Shown: piece after piece, positions 22,188 to 37,347 of the stretch
Layout: each line of letters begins with the position of its first letter
How positions within the stretch are numbered: position 1 is the first letter of the stretch
DNA from: Candidatus Nanoarchaeia archaeon
Lineage (GTDB): Archaea > Nanobdellota > Nanobdellia > SCGC-AAA011-G17 > JACPNG01
Direction of reading: 5' to 3'
Length of the DNA: 64,000 nucleotides
Assembly: GCA_028714095.1 (NCBI GenBank)
Contig: JAQTMY010000002.1
Span: forward strand, 202,636 to 266,635
Position numbers and translations under genes: made by a program
Notes under the pieces: model-generated
What the model was told of the DNA's origin: nothing
The model's database searches: none
Seen by the model: the letters and a program-made list of their open reading frames with translations, nothing else

Positions 22188-23888
22188 TTAAAGTTTCCTC
22201 TTCAAACAGGCATTGATAAATCCTGTATAAATTGGACTTGGTCTTAAGGGTTTAGAAGTATATTCAGGATGGAACTGCACTCCAATAAAGAAAGGATGAT
22301 TTCTTAACTCCAATATCTGCATGATTTCCTCATGCTTTGCTCTCCCAGAAAATATCACTCCTGAATTTACAAACTCCTGCAAATACCTATTATTAAATTC
22401 ATATCTATGTCTAAATCTCTCTCTTATCTGATTTTTATTATACAAATTATAAGCCAAGGTCCCATCCTTAATAAGAACATCATGTCCTCCTAGTCTCATT
22501 GTTCCACCCATTTTATCAATAGATCTTTGTCCAGGCAACAAATCAATGACAGGATGGCTAGTTTCTCTGTCAACTTCTGTTGTATGAGCATCACTCCATC
22601 CCAAAACATTTCTTGCATACTCAATTATTGCCATCTGGAATCCATAACATAATCCTAAGTAAGGCAATTTATTTTTTCTTGCATACTCAACGCATTTAAT
22701 CTTACCTTCAACTCCCCTTGATCCAAAACCACCCGGAACAATTATTCCATCCAGATCCTTTAATTTTTCATTTACGTTTTCATTTGTAACCTCTGTAGTG
22801 TCAATCCAGATTATATTAAGATTACAGTATTTGTAAGGAGCACAATGCTCCAATGCCTTTAATATGCTTAAATAAGAATCCCAAACCTCGGTATATTTCC
22901 CGGTAATCCCCACATTAATTGTTTTATTTACATTTTTTAAAGCATAAACAAACCTTTCCCAGTTTTCAAATGTTAACTCTCCAGTTCCAGAACAGCAATT
23001 TAATTTTAGATGGTTTATTATTGATTTATCCAACCCAATTTGTTTAAGATACAATGGAATTTCATAAATACTTCCGACATTAGGCAATCCAAAAACGCTT
23101 TCAACAGGAACGTTGCTTGAAACACTTATCTTTTGTCTTATCTGGTCTGGAATTGGCAAGCTTGATCTGCATACAATAATATCTGGCTGTATCCCTAATG
23201 ATAATAAACCCTTTAATCCAAGCTGAGCTGCTTTGCTTTTAAATTCTCCCAAGCTACTTGGTTTTAGAATATAACTTAGGTTTACAAAGCAGACATAATC
23301 TGCTCCTTCTTCATGCCTTAGCTGTCTCATTGCCTCAACAAAATATCCGTTCTCTAAATCCCCTACAGTTCCGCCAACCTCAACAATAACAACATCTGCT
23401 TTGGATAAAACTGCTAATTTTCTTATGAAATATTTTATTTCTCCCGTAACGTGGGGGACAAACTGGACATCTCTTCCCAAATATTTTCCAGCCCTTTCTT
23501 TATCTATAATTGTTTTGAATAATTTTCCAGCTGTTAGGTAATTATCTTTAGTTAAATCTCGATTATTAAATCTCTCATAACTTCCTAAGTCCAAATCTGT
23601 TTCAGTCCCGTCATCCAAAACAAAAACCTCTCCATGTCTGTATGGATTTAATGTTCCTGCATCATAATTTAGATAACCATCAAACTTTAAAGGAGCTACT
23701 TTTAGACCATTACAACCTAAAACAGTTCCTAAACTTGAACTGAAAATTCCTTTTCCAATACCTGAAATAACAGTTCCGGTAACAACAACATATTTTGTCT
23801 TACCTTTTTCATAACCATCAGGAATCTCAGAATAGCCTTCTTCATCTACCCCTTTTTTCCCTAGAGAAATAATATCTTCAGGCATCAA
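22188..23888 (-). CDS. pyrG: CTP synthase
   Basis: Makes CTP from UTP, ATP and glutamine. The amidoligase domain (residues about 30-300) has SGIGKGIFSSSLG, HGEVFVLDDG and IVEVGGTVGDLE. The class I glutaminase domain (about 320-566) has the nucleophile Cys in LGLCYGFQMA and the C-terminal His/Glu in GVQFHPEYTSKP. An N-terminal extension of about 27 residues precedes the P-loop strand. A paralogue of only the first domain lies 3.8 kb away at 27677-28516. Confidence 0.98.
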   Translation of the reverse strand: MMPEDIISLGKKGVDEEGYSEIPDGYEKGKTKYVVVTGTVISGIGKGIFSSSLGTVLGCNGLKVAPLKFDGYLNYDAGTLNPYRHGEVFVLDDGTETDLDLGSYERFNNRDLTKDNYLTAGKLFKTIIDKERAGKYLGRDVQFVPHVTGEIKYFIRKLAVLSKADVVIVEVGGTVGDLENGYFVEAMRQLRHEEGADYVCFVNLSYILKPSSLGEFKSKAAQLGLKGLLSLGIQPDIIVCRSSLPIPDQIRQKISVSSNVPVESVFGLPNVGSIYEIPLYLKQIGLDKSIINHLKLNCCSGTGELTFENWERFVYALKNVNKTINVGITGKYTEVWDSYLSILKALEHCAPYKYCNLNIIWIDTTEVTNENVNEKLKDLDGIIVPGGFGSRGVEGKIKCVEYARKNKLPYLGLCYGFQMAIIEYARNVLGWSDAHTTEVDRETSHPVIDLLPGQRSIDKMGGTMRLGGHDVLIKDGTLAYNLYNKNQIRERFRHRYEFNNRYLQEFVNSGVIFSGRAKHEEIMQILELRNHPFFIGVQFHPEYTSKPLRPSPIYTGFINACLKRKL

Positions 23889-26273: not shown

Positions 26274-26867
26274 TTATAAAAACTTATTTAATTCTCTTTT
26301 AATCTTTTCAATAAAGTTCTTATTAAGATTAAATTTTTCTTCTGGAGTAAAATCCATCCAAGATTTAAGACTTCCATTTCTAAAAAAAACTGCAGCAAGT
26401 GGGAACCCCTCAATAAATTCATTTTCAAATAAAGATTTATCAATTCGGCCTTCAACTTTATGAAAAAAAGTTTTAACTTTCCCTTCAGAAGTAGCAATAG
26501 AAACAGCTTCTTGAAAATAACAGTTAGTATTATCCAAATCTTTCATCTTTTTTTTAAAAAACTCAAAAAAGTCTCTATTAGAAACATCAACAGGTAATTC
26601 TCCTCCCCACCTTCTAATCGCGACTCCAGGCTTACCATCTAAAGCTTCAAAATATAATCCAATATCCTCGCTTAAAGTAACTATTCCACTTTCCTTGGCA
26701 TAAAACAAAGCCTTTTTTTGAGAATTTTTTTCTAGAGAAACAAGGTCTTCCTCAATCTCACAGTTAATCCCTAACTCATCTAAAGAATATAAATCAAACT
26801 CTTTCAAAAAAAGTTTCCATTTTTCAAACTTCCCCTTGTTTCTTGTTCCAATTAAAAGTTTAGGCAT
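26274..26867 (-). CDS. HAM1/RdgB-like nucleotide pyrophosphatase, divergent
   Basis: 197 residues. Resembles ITP/XTP pyrophosphatases that clear non-canonical purine NTPs: IGTRNKGKFEKW (about 5-16, the TxNxxK motif), LSEDIGLYFEALDGKPGVAI (about 65-84, the ADDSGL region), and FTPEEKFNLN near the end. The usual GFGYDPVF motif is changed to GFPLAAVF, losing an Asp, so substrate range may differ. It is the last gene of the operon headed by the CTP-synthase-like ligase, 13 nt after its neighbour. Confidence 0.8.
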   Translation of the reverse strand: MPKLLIGTRNKGKFEKWKLFLKEFDLYSLDELGINCEIEEDLVSLEKNSQKKALFYAKESGIVTLSEDIGLYFEALDGKPGVAIRRWGGELPVDVSNRDFFEFFKKKMKDLDNTNCYFQEAVSIATSEGKVKTFFHKVEGRIDKSLFENEFIEGFPLAAVFFRNGSLKSWMDFTPEEKFNLNKNFIEKIKRELNKFL

Positions 26868-26880
26868 ATTCTAAAAGAAT

Positions 26881-27684
26881 CTAACTCCTATTTAATAGTT
26901 TCTCAAATAAATAAAGATGATGATCTAATTCTTCTTTAAATGCTGGAGCATGGAGACCATTATAACTTTCCCTTATCCATACTGAATCCTCCTCAAACCA
27001 ACGGACAGGATCAAATCCTTTAAGATCTTTCCAAGTTTTAGGATCATAAAAACCAAGGGATTCAAAACCCGGAAAAATAATTTCTTTAAGAATATTTCTC
27101 TTGTGGTTTTCTCTATACAAAGGAATTTCCTCCGGGAATAAATTAAAAGATGAAATAAAAACATAAGAAGGCATACCTACCAAAGAAGCTATTCTCAAAA
27201 TAAAGGAAAAAATTACCTCATCATTCATATTAGATTTCTGGGTCAGGATATTGGATAAAGTAGGATAACTCATTTCAAAACCATATAACCCTCCGATAGT
27301 TTCAGAATCAAAACTAATTAGCCCCTCTTCCAATATCTTTCCACAGTTTTCTATAATATAATCTCTTATTTTATCTTTAAAATGCATTGCCTCTGGTTTA
27401 ACCATCCAAGGAAAAGACCTAAAATTTTCAGAAAATTTTTGTGGAGGTTTTAAAAGAGACTTGTGGATATATTTATCCAACTTACCTTTCGCAGAATCTG
27501 TATAATAATCAAAAAAATCAGGGCCATAATTTTCCAATCTCTGAACAAGGACTGAAGGATAAAATTTCCTATAGATTTTCTCTAGAGCAGCAATCTTATC
27601 ATCAAAAGAAATGATATTAGAAGTATCAACTATCCCCTCATAAATTTCAAAAAAACTATCCGAAATATCCTGAATCTCAACCAT
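26881..27684 (-). CDS. unknown protein in CTP-synthase-like operon
   Basis: 267 residues from ATG 27684 (MVEIQDISDSFFEIYEG), which overlaps the end of the upstream ligase gene by 8 bp; a longer frame open to 27786 would overlap it by 110 bp and is less likely. Acidic and aromatic-rich, mostly helical, with segments such as FDSETIGGLYGFEMSYPTL and GMPSYVFISSFNLFPEE. No family recognised. The tight coupling with the amidoligase-like and HAM1-like genes points to a role with a nucleotide or a ligated product. Confidence 0.7.
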   Translation of the reverse strand: MVEIQDISDSFFEIYEGIVDTSNIISFDDKIAALEKIYRKFYPSVLVQRLENYGPDFFDYYTDSAKGKLDKYIHKSLLKPPQKFSENFRSFPWMVKPEAMHFKDKIRDYIIENCGKILEEGLISFDSETIGGLYGFEMSYPTLSNILTQKSNMNDEVIFSFILRIASLVGMPSYVFISSFNLFPEEIPLYRENHKRNILKEIIFPGFESLGFYDPKTWKDLKGFDPVRWFEEDSVWIRESYNGLHAPAFKEELDHHLYLFEKLLNRS

Positions 27685-28516
27685 CTTTATGAAGAAGCGG
27701 GACAAGACGCTCACAAAGGTATCCTCCAAGTTCATGAATTCTATCCTTTTCATAAAAAGGAATTGTAATAATTCTATTTGAATCAAAATGAAGGCCCAGT
27801 CTCTCCTCCAGTTTGTTAGAAATTATTAATTCATTTTCTTGTCTTTTAGCATCATCCAAAAGGGGCATCTCTGCAGGATCTCTAACAAGTAAAATATCCG
27901 GCATAATCAACCTTTTCCCGAACTCGGTAAGATATGATTGGATGTCCCTAGTTTTTATGTGGTATCCATTAAAACTACTCTTAGTTAACAATAAAATATT
28001 ACATCTTTCTCTAAGAGTGTCTTTATAATGTTTCATAGCAGGAACAATAAAAGGATCAACTTCAAAATCTAAGATTGTTCCCCCAACTTCAAAAATAAGA
28101 TTCCTTGGTCTATCTAATCCATTAAACATCTCGCCCATAGTTGCCAAAAAATGATTAACCATGTAAGACCTAAAAGAAGCATTTTCTCCTTCCCCGTACA
28201 AATCTATAAAGCTTTTGATTAACTCTCCTCCAAGAATATAATTTTCTCTGCCGAATCTCCTACCCGGATTATATTCCTCATAAACTCCAAAATCATCATT
28301 ACCTCTAGCCGTATGCCTCCCAGAGCAGTTTGTATTTAACAAACCATCAAACTTTATAACATTAGAATCTTCTAGAGCATTCAGAAGATGAGCTGCCACC
28401 GTCCCTTTCCCCATGTCAGATCCAGGCAAGCTCGTAATGATAACTAAAGAAGAATTATCACTTATCTTATTGTTTTCAATTCTTTGATGAATGTGGTTAA
28501 GAGATTTTTTTTCCAT
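27677..28516 (-). CDS. CTP-synthase-like amidoligase domain protein without glutaminase
   Basis: 279 residues matching only the synthetase half of CTP synthase. The P-loop region is SLPGSDMGKGTVAAHLLNAL (about 29-48), then KFDGLLNTN, GNDDFGVYEEY (aligned with the Mg/UTP loop of PyrG), ENYILGGELIKSFID, and IFEVGGTILDFE (about 142-153, the catalytic-Glu block). There is no class I glutaminase domain. A true pyrG is present, so this paralogue probably does another ligation or amination. Start at ATG 28516, about 30 nt after TTTTATATAG (28541-28550); an upstream in-frame TTG is ignored. First gene of a three-gene operon. Confidence 0.8.
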   Translation of the reverse strand: MEKKSLNHIHQRIENNKISDNSSLVIITSLPGSDMGKGTVAAHLLNALEDSNVIKFDGLLNTNCSGRHTARGNDDFGVYEEYNPGRRFGRENYILGGELIKSFIDLYGEGENASFRSYMVNHFLATMGEMFNGLDRPRNLIFEVGGTILDFEVDPFIVPAMKHYKDTLRERCNILLLTKSSFNGYHIKTRDIQSYLTEFGKRLIMPDILLVRDPAEMPLLDDAKRQENELIISNKLEERLGLHFDSNRIITIPFYEKDRIHELGGYLCERLVPLLHKDG

Positions 28517-28686
28517 AACTCCAACAAACAAAAAAGATCTATATAAAACTTTCTCCTCTTAACCACTTCGAAATAATTACAAAAAAATCAGAAGATTTCC
28601 GCTTCTAAATTTTCAAAGAATATATATCTGTTCCCCAAAACAAAAGTTTAAATACTGTTTAATTATTTTAATTTAAGAGGTGAAAA

Positions 28687-28971
28687 ATGTTATCTGATCT
28701 TCCAATAAATCTTTCAAAAGTAAGAAAAGAAGACATAGACAAGGAAATTCTAAGACTTGGCATGATTGCAGAGCTAGATGCAGTCAGCTTGTATGAACAG
28801 CTAGCAGCAATGACAGAAAATAAAGACATAAAAACTTTGGTTTTGGATATAGCAAAAGAGGAAAAAACCCACATGGGTGAATTCCAGGCCTTGCTTCTAA
28901 GACTGGATAAAGAACTGGTTAATGAATTAAATAAAGGCAGAAAAGAAGTAGAAGATATTACTGGAAAATAG
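28687..28971 (+). CDS. encapsulin-type ferritin-like protein
   Basis: 94 residues. The helix pair with EILRLGMIAELDAVSLYEQL (about 20-39) and LDIAKEEKTHMGEFQALLLR carries the Glu and ExxH iron ligands of encapsulated-ferritin (EncFtn) domains. It strongly recalls the ferritin-like N-terminal segment fused to Pyrococcus encapsulin. Here no shell-protein domain follows. AGAGGTG lies just before the ATG. Likely stores or oxidises iron as an annular oligomer. The micro-ORF at 28990 follows by 18 nt. Confidence 0.85.
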   Translation: MLSDLPINLSKVRKEDIDKEILRLGMIAELDAVSLYEQLAAMTENKDIKTLVLDIAKEEKTHMGEFQALLLRLDKELVNELNKGRKEVEDITGK

Positions 28972-28989
28972 GTTTAGGAGGTAATGATT

Positions 28990-29097
28990 ATGGATAATGA
29001 AGTTCTAATTAAAATAGAAAAACATTTAGAAAGAATTGCTAATGCTTTAGATGATATAGCTGATGCAGTATGCGGAGAGGTTGAAGAAACCCAATAA
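28990..29097 (+). CDS. 35-residue helical micro-protein after the ferritin gene
   Basis: MDNEVLIKIEKHLERIANAL then DDIADAVCGEVEETQ. A strong AGGAGGT (28977-28983) gives good spacing to ATG 28990; an ATG 6 nt earlier is too close to the SD. The sequence has Ile/Leu/Ala at heptad positions and would form an amphipathic coiled-coil helix. It is cotranscribed with the ferritin-like gene and may pair with it or address it to a partner. Confidence 0.65.
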   Translation: MDNEVLIKIEKHLERIANALDDIADAVCGEVEETQ

Positions 29098-29198
29098 CTA
29101 TTCTTTTAATTATCCTAATAAACTAGAGCATAAACTCAAACCACTTTGTAGTAGTTAAATAACGAAAAGCTTTTAAATTCAAAAAAAATTGTTGCAGT

Positions 29199-30680
29199 AT
29201 GGCAACAATAAACGATTTTTTGGATGACAAAGGATTTATTGATATCCCTTCAGTTATTAAATCAGGAGAAGCACACAATTTGTTTCCTGGATATCATCCA
29301 GATATAGAACAAATAAGAAGCAAAGATTTTCCTTTATTTGGAGAACGAGTATATCTCGATAATGGGGCAACATCCCAGGTTCCAGATACAGTAAAAGATA
29401 AAATTCATAATTATAGAAAAACTCACATCAGAGGGAGCAATCATTCTAATGAAAATAAAGAGGCTGAACAAGCCAATCTAATGTTCGAGAGTGCCAGAAA
29501 AGAACTAAGTGATTTTTTTGGGGCTTCAAATTATTTGATGGCTTTCACTTCTGGAACAACTGGATCTTCAAATATGATTGGTGCTAGCTTCGATTTCCAG
29601 TCTAATGATTTATTATTGCTAACTGAAATGGAACATAATTCCCAGATTTTGACTCCAAGAAACTTTGCAAAAATGAATGGAGCAAAAGTAGATTTCGTTC
29701 CTGTAGAATTATCCGAAGGCAGATTAGATCTAAATTATCTTAAAAAAGTTGTTGATGAATTTAATGGAGGAAAGATTCTTCTTAATGTAGTACACGTATC
29801 TAATGTTACAGGAGTTATAAACCCTATTAAGGAGATTAGACAGATAATTGGAGACAAAGGAGCAATTTATTTAGACATGGCTCATTCAGCAGGACATGTG
29901 CCAACTGTAATTAATGAATTGGATGTTGATTTTTTTGGTATGTCTGCCCATAAAATGAATGGTCCTTTTGGAATAGGGTTACTTGGAGTGAAAAAAGGCA
30001 GCCAAAAATATCTAAACTCTAACAGGATTAGTGGGGGCGGTGCAATAGACATGGTCACCATTGAAGGTGAAGTAATCTCAGACGGTGTTGCACGATTTGA
30101 ACCTGGAACCCAAAATCTCGAAGGAGCAATTGAGTGGATGTTTACAGCACAATATCTTAAAGGGATAGGAGGAATAAAAGCAATCAGGAACCACGACGAA
30201 GCTTTAGGTTCTTATTTCCTAGGCGAATTGGAAAAAATAAACAATTTATATGCTGGCGGAGACGGTCCAAAAATTACAATTTATGGACCAAAAACAATGA
30301 AGGATAAAGTTGCAATTTTTGCTCTTAATATTGGGGAAAGGCCTCTTCTTCATAATAATAATAAAAAAGTCGCAAGAATACTTGATAAAGAGGGGATAGC
30401 AGTAAGGCCTGAATGTTTCTGTGCACATATATATTTAGGAACTTTGAACGGATTCACACGTGAGATAAGGGAAGAAAGGCTAAGACTCGTCCAAGATAAA
30501 ACCCTGCCTTTGTCTGAAATGGCACTTTTAGGTGCAGTAAGATTTGGTGTTGGAATTAACAACAACTTAATGGATATGTATCGTGCAGTCGAAGCAGTAA
30601 AAGAAATTGCAGCAGATCCTGAAATTGCAAAACCAGACCCAACTAGAATAAAATATCTAAAGAAAGCCAGTTTAGCGTGA
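29199..30680 (+). CDS. class V aminotransferase, cysteine desulfurase-like (SufS family)
   Basis: 493 residues. PLP enzyme of the NifS/SufS fold: the substrate/PLP region VYLDNGATSQVP (about 50-61), conserved EMEHNSQILTPR (about 143-154), the PLP Lys in MSAHKMNGPFG (about 247-257), and a candidate persulfide Cys in RPECFCAHIYL (about 403-413, where SufS carries its catalytic Cys). Likely mobilises sulfur from Cys for Fe-S clusters or thio-modification. A 40-residue N-terminal extension precedes the fold. It is convergent with the radical-SAM gene; no Suf/Isc scaffold genes are nearby. Confidence 0.88.
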   Translation: MATINDFLDDKGFIDIPSVIKSGEAHNLFPGYHPDIEQIRSKDFPLFGERVYLDNGATSQVPDTVKDKIHNYRKTHIRGSNHSNENKEAEQANLMFESARKELSDFFGASNYLMAFTSGTTGSSNMIGASFDFQSNDLLLLTEMEHNSQILTPRNFAKMNGAKVDFVPVELSEGRLDLNYLKKVVDEFNGGKILLNVVHVSNVTGVINPIKEIRQIIGDKGAIYLDMAHSAGHVPTVINELDVDFFGMSAHKMNGPFGIGLLGVKKGSQKYLNSNRISGGGAIDMVTIEGEVISDGVARFEPGTQNLEGAIEWMFTAQYLKGIGGIKAIRNHDEALGSYFLGELEKINNLYAGGDGPKITIYGPKTMKDKVAIFALNIGERPLLHNNNKKVARILDKEGIAVRPECFCAHIYLGTLNGFTREIREERLRLVQDKTLPLSEMALLGAVRFGVGINNNLMDMYRAVEAVKEIAADPEIAKPDPTRIKYLKKASLA

Positions 30681-30704
30681 TAGATTAATAAAATTCTGTA
30701 AATT

Positions 30705-31712
30705 CTATTTAGGAACCATAGGACATATCATCTTATCAGATAATGGATATAATTCCCTTTTCCTGTCAATAATTAAATCCAATGAATCTATTTTTATGTT
30801 CCCGATATCTTTATCACTTTTAGGAGGGGGTCTTCCAAAACAAAATCTTGCAGAACCATCAATATATAAAATAATTCCTGTAGCCCAATAAAGACAACCA
30901 TGCTCTGTTTGTGTAAAAGAAGCTTCAGTATTTTGTTTTGATACGTCCACGAGTTTCCCAAAGCTCACATCGCCCACGATCTTTCGTTCCCACTCTTTTT
31001 CTGCAGAACCTGCCATTTCTGGAGGTCTTGCCACAAACAAAATTCCCTTATCATTACAATATTCTTTAATTTTTGGGATCTCATGATAATTTAATCCCAT
31101 TACAATTGTATTGATTGCTATATCTGTTACTCTCTGCCCGTTTTCAGTCCATACTTTCCCATATCCAGCCTTAAGGCAGTTTTCAATTCCAATCAAAGTT
31201 TTCCTAAGCATCCCTTCAGTCCTTGTTATTTGGTTGTAAAGTTTATCTGTAATCGCATGGACAGAAGCATAAACAGAAGTTTTGTGATCAAAAAGAAAAC
31301 TAGCCATATAAGAATCAATACAATCAGTCACATTTGTAATTACTAAAGGAGTCATATTTTTATGATAAATCCTTTCTATCAAATTAGTCACATTCGGATC
31401 TTTTAATGTTTCTCCTATTCCCACTAAAACTACAGACTTAGCCCCCAAATCTGCAGCTTGATCAATAGCACTTATATAATAATCCAAACTCATCCACTCA
31501 TCTCTGTTTATTTCTCTCCCGGAGTTGCTTATTCCTCCATGATTATAACAAAAAAAACAATCAAGATTACAACCCGGCCCCAAGGTTAAACCTAAGGTTA
31601 TCATTTTATTAGTTGGGTCTTGTCCACTTGCAATTAATCTAAATTCTTCCTCAGTAAATGAACCATTCCCCTTTAGGAACGTTTGATGATTTAAAGTGTC
31701 TGTTTTTACCAT
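30705..31712 (-). CDS. radical SAM enzyme with C-terminal Cys motif
   Basis: 335 residues. The cluster motif CxxxCxxC is CNLDCFFCYN (about 49-58). SAM-binding features include VVLVGIGETLKDP (GGE-like) and TNVTD. The C-terminal region has CLYW, ARFCFGRPP and a final CPM, like a SPASM-type auxiliary site with the ending DIGNIKIDSLD. It sits 3 nt downstream of the isopentenyltransferase-like gene, so the two are cotranscribed. The substrate is unknown; it is not MiaB, since no TRAM or UPF0004 domain is visible. Confidence 0.85.
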   Translation of the reverse strand: MVKTDTLNHQTFLKGNGSFTEEEFRLIASGQDPTNKMITLGLTLGPGCNLDCFFCYNHGGISNSGREINRDEWMSLDYYISAIDQAADLGAKSVVLVGIGETLKDPNVTNLIERIYHKNMTPLVITNVTDCIDSYMASFLFDHKTSVYASVHAITDKLYNQITRTEGMLRKTLIGIENCLKAGYGKVWTENGQRVTDIAINTIVMGLNYHEIPKIKEYCNDKGILFVARPPEMAGSAEKEWERKIVGDVSFGKLVDVSKQNTEASFTQTEHGCLYWATGIILYIDGSARFCFGRPPPKSDKDIGNIKIDSLDLIIDRKRELYPLSDKMICPMVPK

Positions 31713-31715
31713 TTT

Positions 31716-32462
31716 TTAAGTTCTTGCATGGCCCTCTCTTGAGAGTATCTCCTCAATCTCAGAAACATTCTGCCCTAAATCGTTGGGATTATACTCTATC
31801 CAATTGATATCTTCTATTTTTGAAAATTTTTTTAATCCACGATGAGCATGTTCTAAAACATTTTTAACTATTTCTTCTGTCAATTCTTCTTTACTAAGCT
31901 CTCCTTTTAAATATTTTGCAGTAGGAATAAGAATTATTCCTTTTTTCATTACATACGAATCCTCTAGCCCCCTCCTAATCGCTGCCTCTGTCTCTTTGAT
32001 TACAAATGGAAACACATCCTTCCATCTTTTTCTTATTGCTCCTTCTAAATCATATCCTTCTGACCATCTAAGTCCAACTGCAACAGGAGTCATTTTACTA
32101 GAAGGGCTCTTTAGTTTCTCCTGAAGTGCAGACATAAATTTATAAGAGCAACCCTCCGCAATAGGGAGATTCCCTCTTTCAAGTATCTCATCAACTGCAT
32201 ACAAAGCAAAGGAAATATATTCTTCAGTGCTCAAAATTGGGTCTTGAGGATCAAGTATTTGATATAGGTGGTGTTGGGATTTGGTTCCTCTAAAATTATC
32301 AGATGCTCCGGTTGAATATGTAAAATCCTTATATAGATAAAACTTATCTCCATTTATAATCTCCCCAGAGTGTTTAATAGCATAAGCTCGCGCAACTTTT
32401 GTTTTTCCGGTTGTTGTTGGGCCCATTATTAATAAGGCCACATCTTTTTTATCTAGTGACAT
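31716..32462 (-). CDS. adenylate/tRNA isopentenyltransferase-like P-loop protein
   Basis: 248 residues. Walker A GPTTTGKT (about 14-21), the conserved Asp in EIINGDKFYLYKDF, HHLYQILDPQDP (the MiaA/IPT core block), and IAEGCSYKFMSAL (aligned with the EGGSTSLLN region of plant-pathogen IPT). This family moves a dimethylallyl group to the N6 of adenine in tRNA (MiaA) or AMP (IPT). Archaea generally lack both. At 248 residues it is nearer the IPT than the ~300-residue MiaA length. Operon with the radical-SAM gene. Confidence 0.75.
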   Translation of the reverse strand: MSLDKKDVALLIMGPTTTGKTKVARAYAIKHSGEIINGDKFYLYKDFTYSTGASDNFRGTKSQHHLYQILDPQDPILSTEEYISFALYAVDEILERGNLPIAEGCSYKFMSALQEKLKSPSSKMTPVAVGLRWSEGYDLEGAIRKRWKDVFPFVIKETEAAIRRGLEDSYVMKKGIILIPTAKYLKGELSKEELTEEIVKNVLEHAHRGLKKFSKIEDINWIEYNPNDLGQNVSEIEEILSREGHART

Positions 32463-32603
32463 AAATTTTAAGATATATATTTATTTAAAAAACTATGTAT
32501 TTTTGTAACTTTACAGTCGTCATTTTTTGGAATCAGAAACTCTGAACAAATTCAAAAATTAATGGATATTTAGAAGCTTACCCAATATGCCAGAAAGATA
32601 ATA

Positions 32604-32675
32604 TGCACCAGCGGGGAGTTGGACCCCGGTCTAAGCGTTGGCAACGCCTAATTCTAACCACTAAACTACTGGTGC
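32604..32675 (-). tRNA. tRNA-Gly (anticodon GCC)
   Basis: 72-nt cloverleaf. Acceptor GCACCAG/CTGGTGC plus discriminator A; D-arm GTTT..GAAT with two G-U pairs; anticodon stem AGGCG/CGCTT around TTGCCAA (anticodon GCC); T-stem CGGGG/CCCCG. The T-loop is TCCAACT with C at position 55, as in tRNA-Arg here. No intron, CCA not encoded. Confidence 0.95.
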
Positions 32676-36435: not shown

Positions 36436-37347
36436 TTAAATATTAGATAATCCTATTAATTCCAACCACTTATTTTCAGAGTTAAGTTTTAAATCAGTAG
36501 CTAACTCATAAGGGCATTTATTTAATGCCTGATGTTTAGTTATGAAATTATAATAAACTTCATACCCTTTCATAATGGCATTAGCACTTTCAACCGAGCC
36601 GTGAAATCCACGAAAAGTTTTAGTTCTCTGCCTAATGTTATTATGTAATCTTTCAATCATAATGTTAAACCCCTCTCCCTGAGAAGCATTAACTTGATGG
36701 TGAGTTATTTTAGTCTTTGCGTCTCTTTTATGCAATCCGAAACTATTCCTTAGTGCCTGTGGATAAGCCATATATCCATCTGTGGTAATAATTTTTACTT
36801 GTTGTTCTGTTTTCTTCTTTGCTGATTTAAGAACATCTTTTAACTCATTCATACTCCTTGATTTAACATAATTGGAAGAAACCATAAATCTTGTTTTTGT
36901 ATCAATAACATCTATAAACCAATTTTTATCTACACCCTTATAATTACGGCTCTTTCTCCTGTGGTATTCCATTTCGTCTATTTGTAGTTCATTACCAACA
37001 TTCAGTTTTAGATTATGGGTATATTGGCTTATTTTCTTAGAGTATTTAACAATCCACTTATAGATTGATTTATGGCTTGAATTATGAGGATAGAAAGCTT
37101 GAAAATGTTCCTGCACTTTTCTTGTTGAAACTCCCCTGTAAAACAAGTCCAAAGCACAGGTTATTTTTTGAGGGCTATTTCTCATCCTGTAAAAGCCATA
37201 ATCCAAGACAAACCTTAATCCACATTCCTTGCATTTATATCTCTGGATTAAGCCCCTGTTCTCTGTCTTTCTCTTGCCGTCCTTTCTGATTGATTGGCTC
37301 TTACAGTTTGGGCATTTTGTGTCAATTTCCATAGAAATATTAGGCAC
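36436..37347 (-). CDS. IS6/IS240-like DDE transposase with zinc ribbon
   Basis: 303 residues. N-terminal zinc ribbon CPNCKSQSIRKDGKRK, then RYKCKECGLRF; a helix-turn-helix region (GVSTRKVQEHF); then a DDE core with D in QIDEMEYHRRK (about 132), D in IITTDGYMAY (about 193) and E in MIERLHNNIRQRTKTFRGF (about 242). Appears intact. I could not find terminal inverted repeats or a target duplication on either side, so the element's ends are unresolved. A 38-bp promoter-like repeat lies just upstream. Confidence 0.85.
   Translation of the reverse strand: MPNISMEIDTKCPNCKSQSIRKDGKRKTENRGLIQRYKCKECGLRFVLDYGFYRMRNSPQKITCALDLFYRGVSTRKVQEHFQAFYPHNSSHKSIYKWIVKYSKKISQYTHNLKLNVGNELQIDEMEYHRRKSRNYKGVDKNWFIDVIDTKTRFMVSSNYVKSRSMNELKDVLKSAKKKTEQQVKIITTDGYMAYPQALRNSFGLHKRDAKTKITHHQVNASQGEGFNIMIERLHNNIRQRTKTFRGFHGSVESANAIMKGYEVYYNFITKHQALNKCPYELATDLKLNSENKWLELIGLSNI

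Follow-up and report, generated by a model that had tools for sequence, protein, structure and literature searches.

A CTP synthase-like ligase lacking a glutaminase, paired with a divergent HAM1-family pyrophosphatase in an archaeon and fused to one in two CPR bacteria

The almost universal enzyme CTP synthase (CTPS) is described in teaching as a fusion of a glutaminase with a synthetase. What, then, would a synthetase half without its glutaminase do in a genome that also encodes the complete enzyme, and what would connect it with a pyrophosphatase encoded two genes further on? This question is raised by a 64,000-nucleotide stretch of DNA (the window) from a Candidatus Nanoarchaeia archaeon, with the following features at its centre.

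26274 to 26867, minus strand: divergent HAM1-family pyrophosphatase, 197 aa; Ham1p_like (PF01725), 75.9–76.5 bits
26881 to 27684, minus strand: middle protein, an ORFan predicted to be mostly helical, 267 aa; ATG at 27684, 8-bp overlap with the ligase gene
27677 to 28516, minus strand: CTPS-like amidoligase without glutaminase, 279 aa; ATG start; K37, K55, D75 and E143 correspond to E. coli K18, K40, D72 and E140
28277 to 28354, minus strand: family-specific shortened K-F-D ... D-F-G-x-Y-E segment of the ligase, 12 residues shorter than in CTPS
22188 to 23888, minus strand: ordinary complete pyrG, for comparison, 566 aa; PF06418 plus GATase

The three adjacent open reading frames (ORFs) are all supported as coding by codon usage, the middle one least strongly, and their layout is as the preliminary description gave it: they share one strand, the ligase and middle genes have 8 bp in common, and 13 nt separate the end of the middle ORF from the start of the HAM1-like one. 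The motifs GKG, KFDGLLN and EVGGT can be read in the ligase, whose sole Pfam family match is CTP_synth_N (PF06418; score 32.6 bits, cut-off 26.1, E = 7e-8). Its scores fall far under the PyrG equivalog cut-offs of NCBIfam (29.5 versus 308 bits and 22.6 versus 462.75 bits). The reading frame ends with the synthetase domain and lacks the C-terminal class I glutamine amidotransferase (glutaminase) domain, and a full-length pyrG, conserved in the genus, lies 3.8 kb away. These data bear out the initial reading of the gene as a CTPS synthetase half without glutaminase, and with it the need for a donor other than a glutaminase of its own. An AF2 model of the ligase built from a 12-row alignment reached a pLDDT of 84.8 and a pTM of 0.87, and only one longer stretch, residues 65–73 within the shortened loop, fell below a pLDDT of 50. 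In a Foldseek search with this model, all 50 listed PDB matches were CTPSs (best match 1vco, E = 3.4e-12). A better fit to dethiobiotin synthetase or MinD had been named as the result that would overturn the assignment; the ligase gave no Pfam or NCBIfam match to either. We therefore confirm the 279-aa protein as a CTPS-type ligase, not a dethiobiotin synthetase or MinD.

The middle protein has no Pfam, NCBIfam or PHROG match, a single non-significant match in the PDB, and only short weak matches across 371 genomes of the phylum; its single-sequence AF2 model has a pLDDT of 36. It was met nowhere else, and the conserved trio that had been expected thus gives way to a pair: the middle gene is an ORFan outside the conserved unit, which consists of the ligase and the HAM1-like enzyme.

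This pair occurs as a single-frame fusion in two Candidate Phyla Radiation (CPR) bacteria (genomes G902 and G476). In G902, an intact ORF of 482 aa comprises CTP_synth_N and Ham1p_like, with the HAM1 domain taking the place of the glutaminase at the C-terminus. The ligase at locus L035 of G476 (Candidatus Nomurabacteria) was matched at 37% identity over 274 aa (E = 1.5e-55), and its ORF continues into a HAM1 domain that is broken off by the end of the contig. The missing part of the domain is found on a second contig from this assembly (G476:C62): at the edge of that contig the domain picks up again from the following HMM position, the KEL residues at the junction match, and we infer that the two pieces belong to one fusion. 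A complete pyrG is also present in G476.

The L035 ligase was recognized by a DNA pattern representing the shortened K-F-D ... D-F-G-x-Y-E segment, which was scanned over 84,980 species genomes and returned 16 loci, L035 alone being genuine; the other 15 were chance matches. The G902 fusion was found by searching the family of the L035 bacterium. Because the pattern misses variants such as G902, which has DDFA and not DDFG, the rarity of this ligase is firm, whereas a total of three members is not. In 99 relatives and in 378 genomes from the class of the archaeon, only ordinary CTPSs were found besides the window copy; the few short frames had the look of fragments, of frameshifts or of genes cut by contig ends. 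No further member appeared in 393 class, 9 genus or 380 phylum genomes. Direct protein searches of viral contigs, phages and plasmids yielded either no relative or ordinary full-length CTPS, and two variable-gap patterns had no match in the viral contigs. The matches in jumbo-phage LR756511.1 and Rhizobium plasmid pRlX5 carry complete glutaminases and are thus ordinary CTPSs. In the open-access literature searched, we found neither a glutaminase-less CTPS family nor a CTPS–HAM1 fusion.

In a phylogenetic tree, the three ligases group at 100/100 on a long stem. All sampled CTPSs fall outside this clade, among them the window genome's own PyrG and that of G476. The three HAM1 domains likewise form a clade (99/97), apart from the canonical HAM1 of the archaeon. 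Two matching trees, together with a fusion that reaches across archaea and bacteria, argue strongly for joint action of the two activities. The functional link that had been proposed between the ligase and the HAM1-like protein is upheld by the gene fusions and the matching clades; as for recurrence of the gene neighbourhood, the pair returns, fused, in the two CPR bacteria, whereas the full trio was not recovered. At the level of sequence comparison, the pairing is confirmed as real.

Directly upstream of both CPR fusions lie remnants of a P-loop nucleotide-kinase-like gene (L071 9639–10230 in G902; L035 1769–1996). Those in G902 have broken frames and no Pfam match, and that at L035 is a C-terminal piece with a weak AAA_18 match below the cut-off. 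They hint that the ancestral cassette may have included a kinase.

We compared the active site of the three ligases with that of CTPS, taking residue roles in phosphoryl transfer and in direct UTP and ATP-ribose contacts from Drosophila CTPS, in E. coli numbering (PMC8325340), and the functions of the tunnel gate (P54/V60) and of the GTP and L4-loop residues from a review (PMC9138612). The phosphoryl-transfer residues K18, K40, D72 and E140 are kept in all three members. So are D42, which contacts uracil, D147 and E149, which contact the ribose, K187 and T188, which contact the triphosphate, Q192, and R211, which contacts the ATP ribose. The sole change among catalytic and direct-contact residues is K189 to Arg, in the window ligase only. 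The tunnel gate P54/V60, the GTP determinants T51, M52 and E68 and the L4 loop are deleted or replaced in every member, and the 12-residue deletion, identical in all three, falls exactly at the tunnel/GTP loop. Also replaced are R158 and the neighbour-subunit segment that contributes the inter-subunit base site (E. coli 103–118). Identical residues occupy 69 of 279 positions across the three ligases; the placement of the equivalent of H57, which contacts the UTP alpha-phosphate, and of some base-site positions varies with the alignment, and these were given no weight.

The retained direct contacts support a UTP-like substrate, as had been suggested from the window alone, while the replacement of segment 103–118 and R158 means that base specificity may differ from UTP. 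The pattern of conservation also bears on whether the ligase is an enzyme at all. A decaying or regulatory pseudo-enzyme left by duplication of pyrG would account for the lost domain, the high divergence and the degenerate kinase remnants beside the CPR copies. However, archaeal and bacterial members alike keep the catalytic residues, the same deletion is found in all three members, their frames are intact, and their clade is not sister to the local pyrG; the chance that they are pseudo-enzymes appears little short of negligible.

The HAM1-like protein has diverged in a comparable way. It is the product of a second copy in its genome, where a canonical HAM1 elsewhere scores higher (134 versus 75.9 bits), and it falls below the HAM1 equivalog cut-offs. 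Its phosphate motif T8-x-N10-x-x-K13 and its D68, equivalent to the catalytic Asp D69 of RdgB, are invariant. The S[HQ]R base-recognition motif, which reads SQR in the canonical HAM1 of the archaeon and SHR in RdgB, is missing from all three HAM1 domains (window, G902 and G476), whereas their phosphate-binding and catalytic residues are kept; GFGYDP is missing from all three sequences as well. A signature, GVA[IL]RRWGGELP, is common to the HAM1 domains of this clade, and for the window protein, the match to the HAM1 domain of the G902 fusion (115 bits) exceeds that to the canonical HAM1 of its own genome (48.9 bits). Yeast Ham1p has been implicated in action on non-canonical pyrimidine triphosphates (PMC3792807), and the altered base site seen here would fit a non-purine substrate.

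Other HAM1-family arrangements were seen in CPR bacteria. A second HAM1-like clade, which likewise has no S[HQ]R motif and is placed as sister to that of the fusions (94/91), consists of genes that stand alone in their genomes (L081 1492–2094 in G480; L086 1423–2037 in G775), and some CPR genomes carry tandem pairs of different HAM1-family genes (L073/L089 in G853; L074/L085 in G528).

Based on these comparisons, we propose a plausible mechanism in which the ligase and the HAM1-like protein act as a dedicated two-step enzyme unit, separate in the archaeon and fused in the CPR bacteria. First, the ligase would bind a uridine-type NTP and MgATP and phosphorylate the base at O4. With the UTP-activating site intact and no glutaminase, tunnel or GTP control, the simplest reading is that a soluble amine is used directly, so that free ammonia or another small amine would attack the phosphorylated intermediate. 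Second, the HAM1-family enzyme, with its changed base-recognition motif, would cleave the 4-aminated NTP to NMP and PPi. That the same two enzymes are fused in two bacteria suggests that they probably catalyze successive steps on a uridine-type nucleotide. Overall, one ATP would be spent to convert a UTP-type NTP into a C4-aminated NMP and PPi. The pyrimidine NMP released would be aminated and might be N4-modified, and the triphosphate would be kept out of RNA and DNA. Against this scheme stand the small number of known members (three), the third protein in the archaeal operon, the kinase-like remnants preceding the CPR unit, and the replacement of segment 103–118 and R158. On balance, we regard a two-step ligase/pyrophosphatase unit acting on a uridine-type NTP as having about an even chance of being correct, its substrate, donor, step order and product all being deduced from sequence. 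A more specific version is tentative: a pathway in ultra-small archaea and CPR bacteria whose product would be an N4-modified cytidylate or some other pyrimidine nucleotide substituted at C4, with the ligase using an amine other than glutamine and passing its product directly to a specialised HAM1 enzyme that releases the modified monophosphate.

The unit might instead make no new product. CTPS can take exogenous ammonia (PMC9138612), and with the catalytic and direct UTP contacts all kept, the ligase could be a minimal, unregulated, ammonia-dependent CTP synthase that converts UTP to CTP (and CMP) in nucleotide-scavenging hosts, accompanied by a pool-cleaning pyrophosphatase. This is unlikely: the genomes of the window and of G476 each have a complete pyrG, a fused HAM1 enzyme would destroy the newly made CTP, and the HAM1 domain of the partner falls in a clade of its own.

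We next consider the genomic setting, which bears on two further readings of the unit. The pair and the ORFan are part of a variable island, delimited by comparison with a genome of the same genus (G001).

26274 to 32603, no strand assigned: variable island of ~6.3 kb between the thermosome gene and tRNA-Gly(gcc)
28687 to 28971: EncB-family ferritin-like gene
29199 to 30680: SufS-like gene, 493 aa
30705 to 31712: MoaA-like radical SAM gene
31716 to 32462: truncated-MiaA-like P-loop gene
32604 to 32675, minus strand: tRNA-Gly(gcc), flank of the island

In G001, the thermosome gene and tRNA-Gly(gcc) lie ~0.6 kb apart with no island gene between them. The G902 fusion lies ~0.6 kb from tRNA-Val(tac) and adjoins a dihydroorotate dehydrogenase gene. 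About 100 bp around the start of that gene are duplicated beyond the fusion cassette (73%, E = 9e-10; L071 7850–8190 and 9990–10200), as insertion by duplication would leave them. This setting suggests that the ligase/HAM1 unit is probably mobile as a cassette; the viral contigs, phages and plasmids searched contained no carrier of it.

Several observations concern the neighbours themselves. The best NCBIfam matches of the SufS-like protein, encoded beside the EncB-type gene, include the family 2A encapsulin cargo cysteine desulfurase, and its DndA/SspA match reflects generic cysteine-desulfurase similarity. The similarity of the MiaA-like gene to MiaA (69.6 bits) is confined to the first half of the latter; the radical SAM gene lies 3 nt downstream, and the two look like an operon. 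The radical SAM gene scored 38.6 bits against the prokaryotic viperin models of PADLOC, but NCBIfam, with scores all far below cut-off, ranks it closer to MoaA and other radical SAM proteins, and the idea of viperin and ddhCTP was therefore dropped. An ORF resembling an IS6-type DDE transposase, read from its translation, lies ~8 kb from the three genes (window 36436–37347).

Carriage in a tRNA-flanked island with other variable genes, an extremely patchy distribution and the proximity to a tRNA in G902 as well are what a defence or conflict effector might show, one that drains UTP/CTP and ATP when triggered, with the ORFan as its sensor or regulator. We consider this distinctly unlikely, as no PADLOC model matches the ligase, the middle protein, the HAM1-like protein or the CPR fusion, no partner resembles a known phage sensor, the CPR version has no ORFan, and viral relatives were not found in the searches above. 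The island also makes conceivable a changed ligase substrate: this P-loop amidoligase would act on some nucleotide other than a uridine nucleotide, or on one made by the MiaA-like and radical SAM neighbours, and the HAM1-like enzyme would be tuned to it. The replaced 103–118 segment and R158, the loss of S[HQ]R and the presence of both neighbour genes in the same island fit such a change, which nonetheless seems quite improbable, given that the contacts to uracil (Asp42), ribose and triphosphate are kept and that the island neighbours are absent beside the CPR fusions.

The two-step unit on a uridine-type nucleotide would be of interest beyond these genomes. A clade that has shed the glutaminase, the tunnel and GTP control, retains the UTP-activating site and is joined to a pyrophosphatase amounts to a natural experiment on the use of other amines. 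Its study may bring to light a pyrimidine nucleotide with a new modification, an effector that depletes nucleotides, or a CTP synthase reduced to a minimum, and the 482-aa fusion offers a single soluble protein for direct assay.

Among known systems, PyrG (EC 6.3.4.2) is the nearest to the ligase, sharing its fold, P-loop, 4-O-phosphorylation residues and direct UTP and ATP-ribose contacts. The ligase differs from it in having neither glutaminase nor tunnel gate and GTP loop, in its replaced L4, in its separate clade, and in being paired or fused with HAM1. The logic of a ligase working with a pyrophosphatase or triphosphohydrolase is analogous to that of PurZ with MazZ or DatZ in the 2-aminoadenine (Z-genome) phages; PurZ, however, is a homologue of adenylosuccinate synthetase that acts on dGMP with Asp, and there is no CTPS or HAM1 homology. 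With the HAM1/RdgB/ITPA family (PF01725), the partner enzyme shares the domain, T-x-N-x-x-K and the catalytic Asp, whereas the window and CPR domains are without the S[HQ]R purine-recognition motif and GFGYDP, and those of the CPR bacteria are fused to the ligase. Yeast Ham1p with YJL055W likewise combines a HAM1 enzyme with a partner, and this pair targets non-canonical pyrimidine nucleotides (PMC3792807); unlike the unit described here, its partner is not a ligase, its role is detoxification and its genes are separate.
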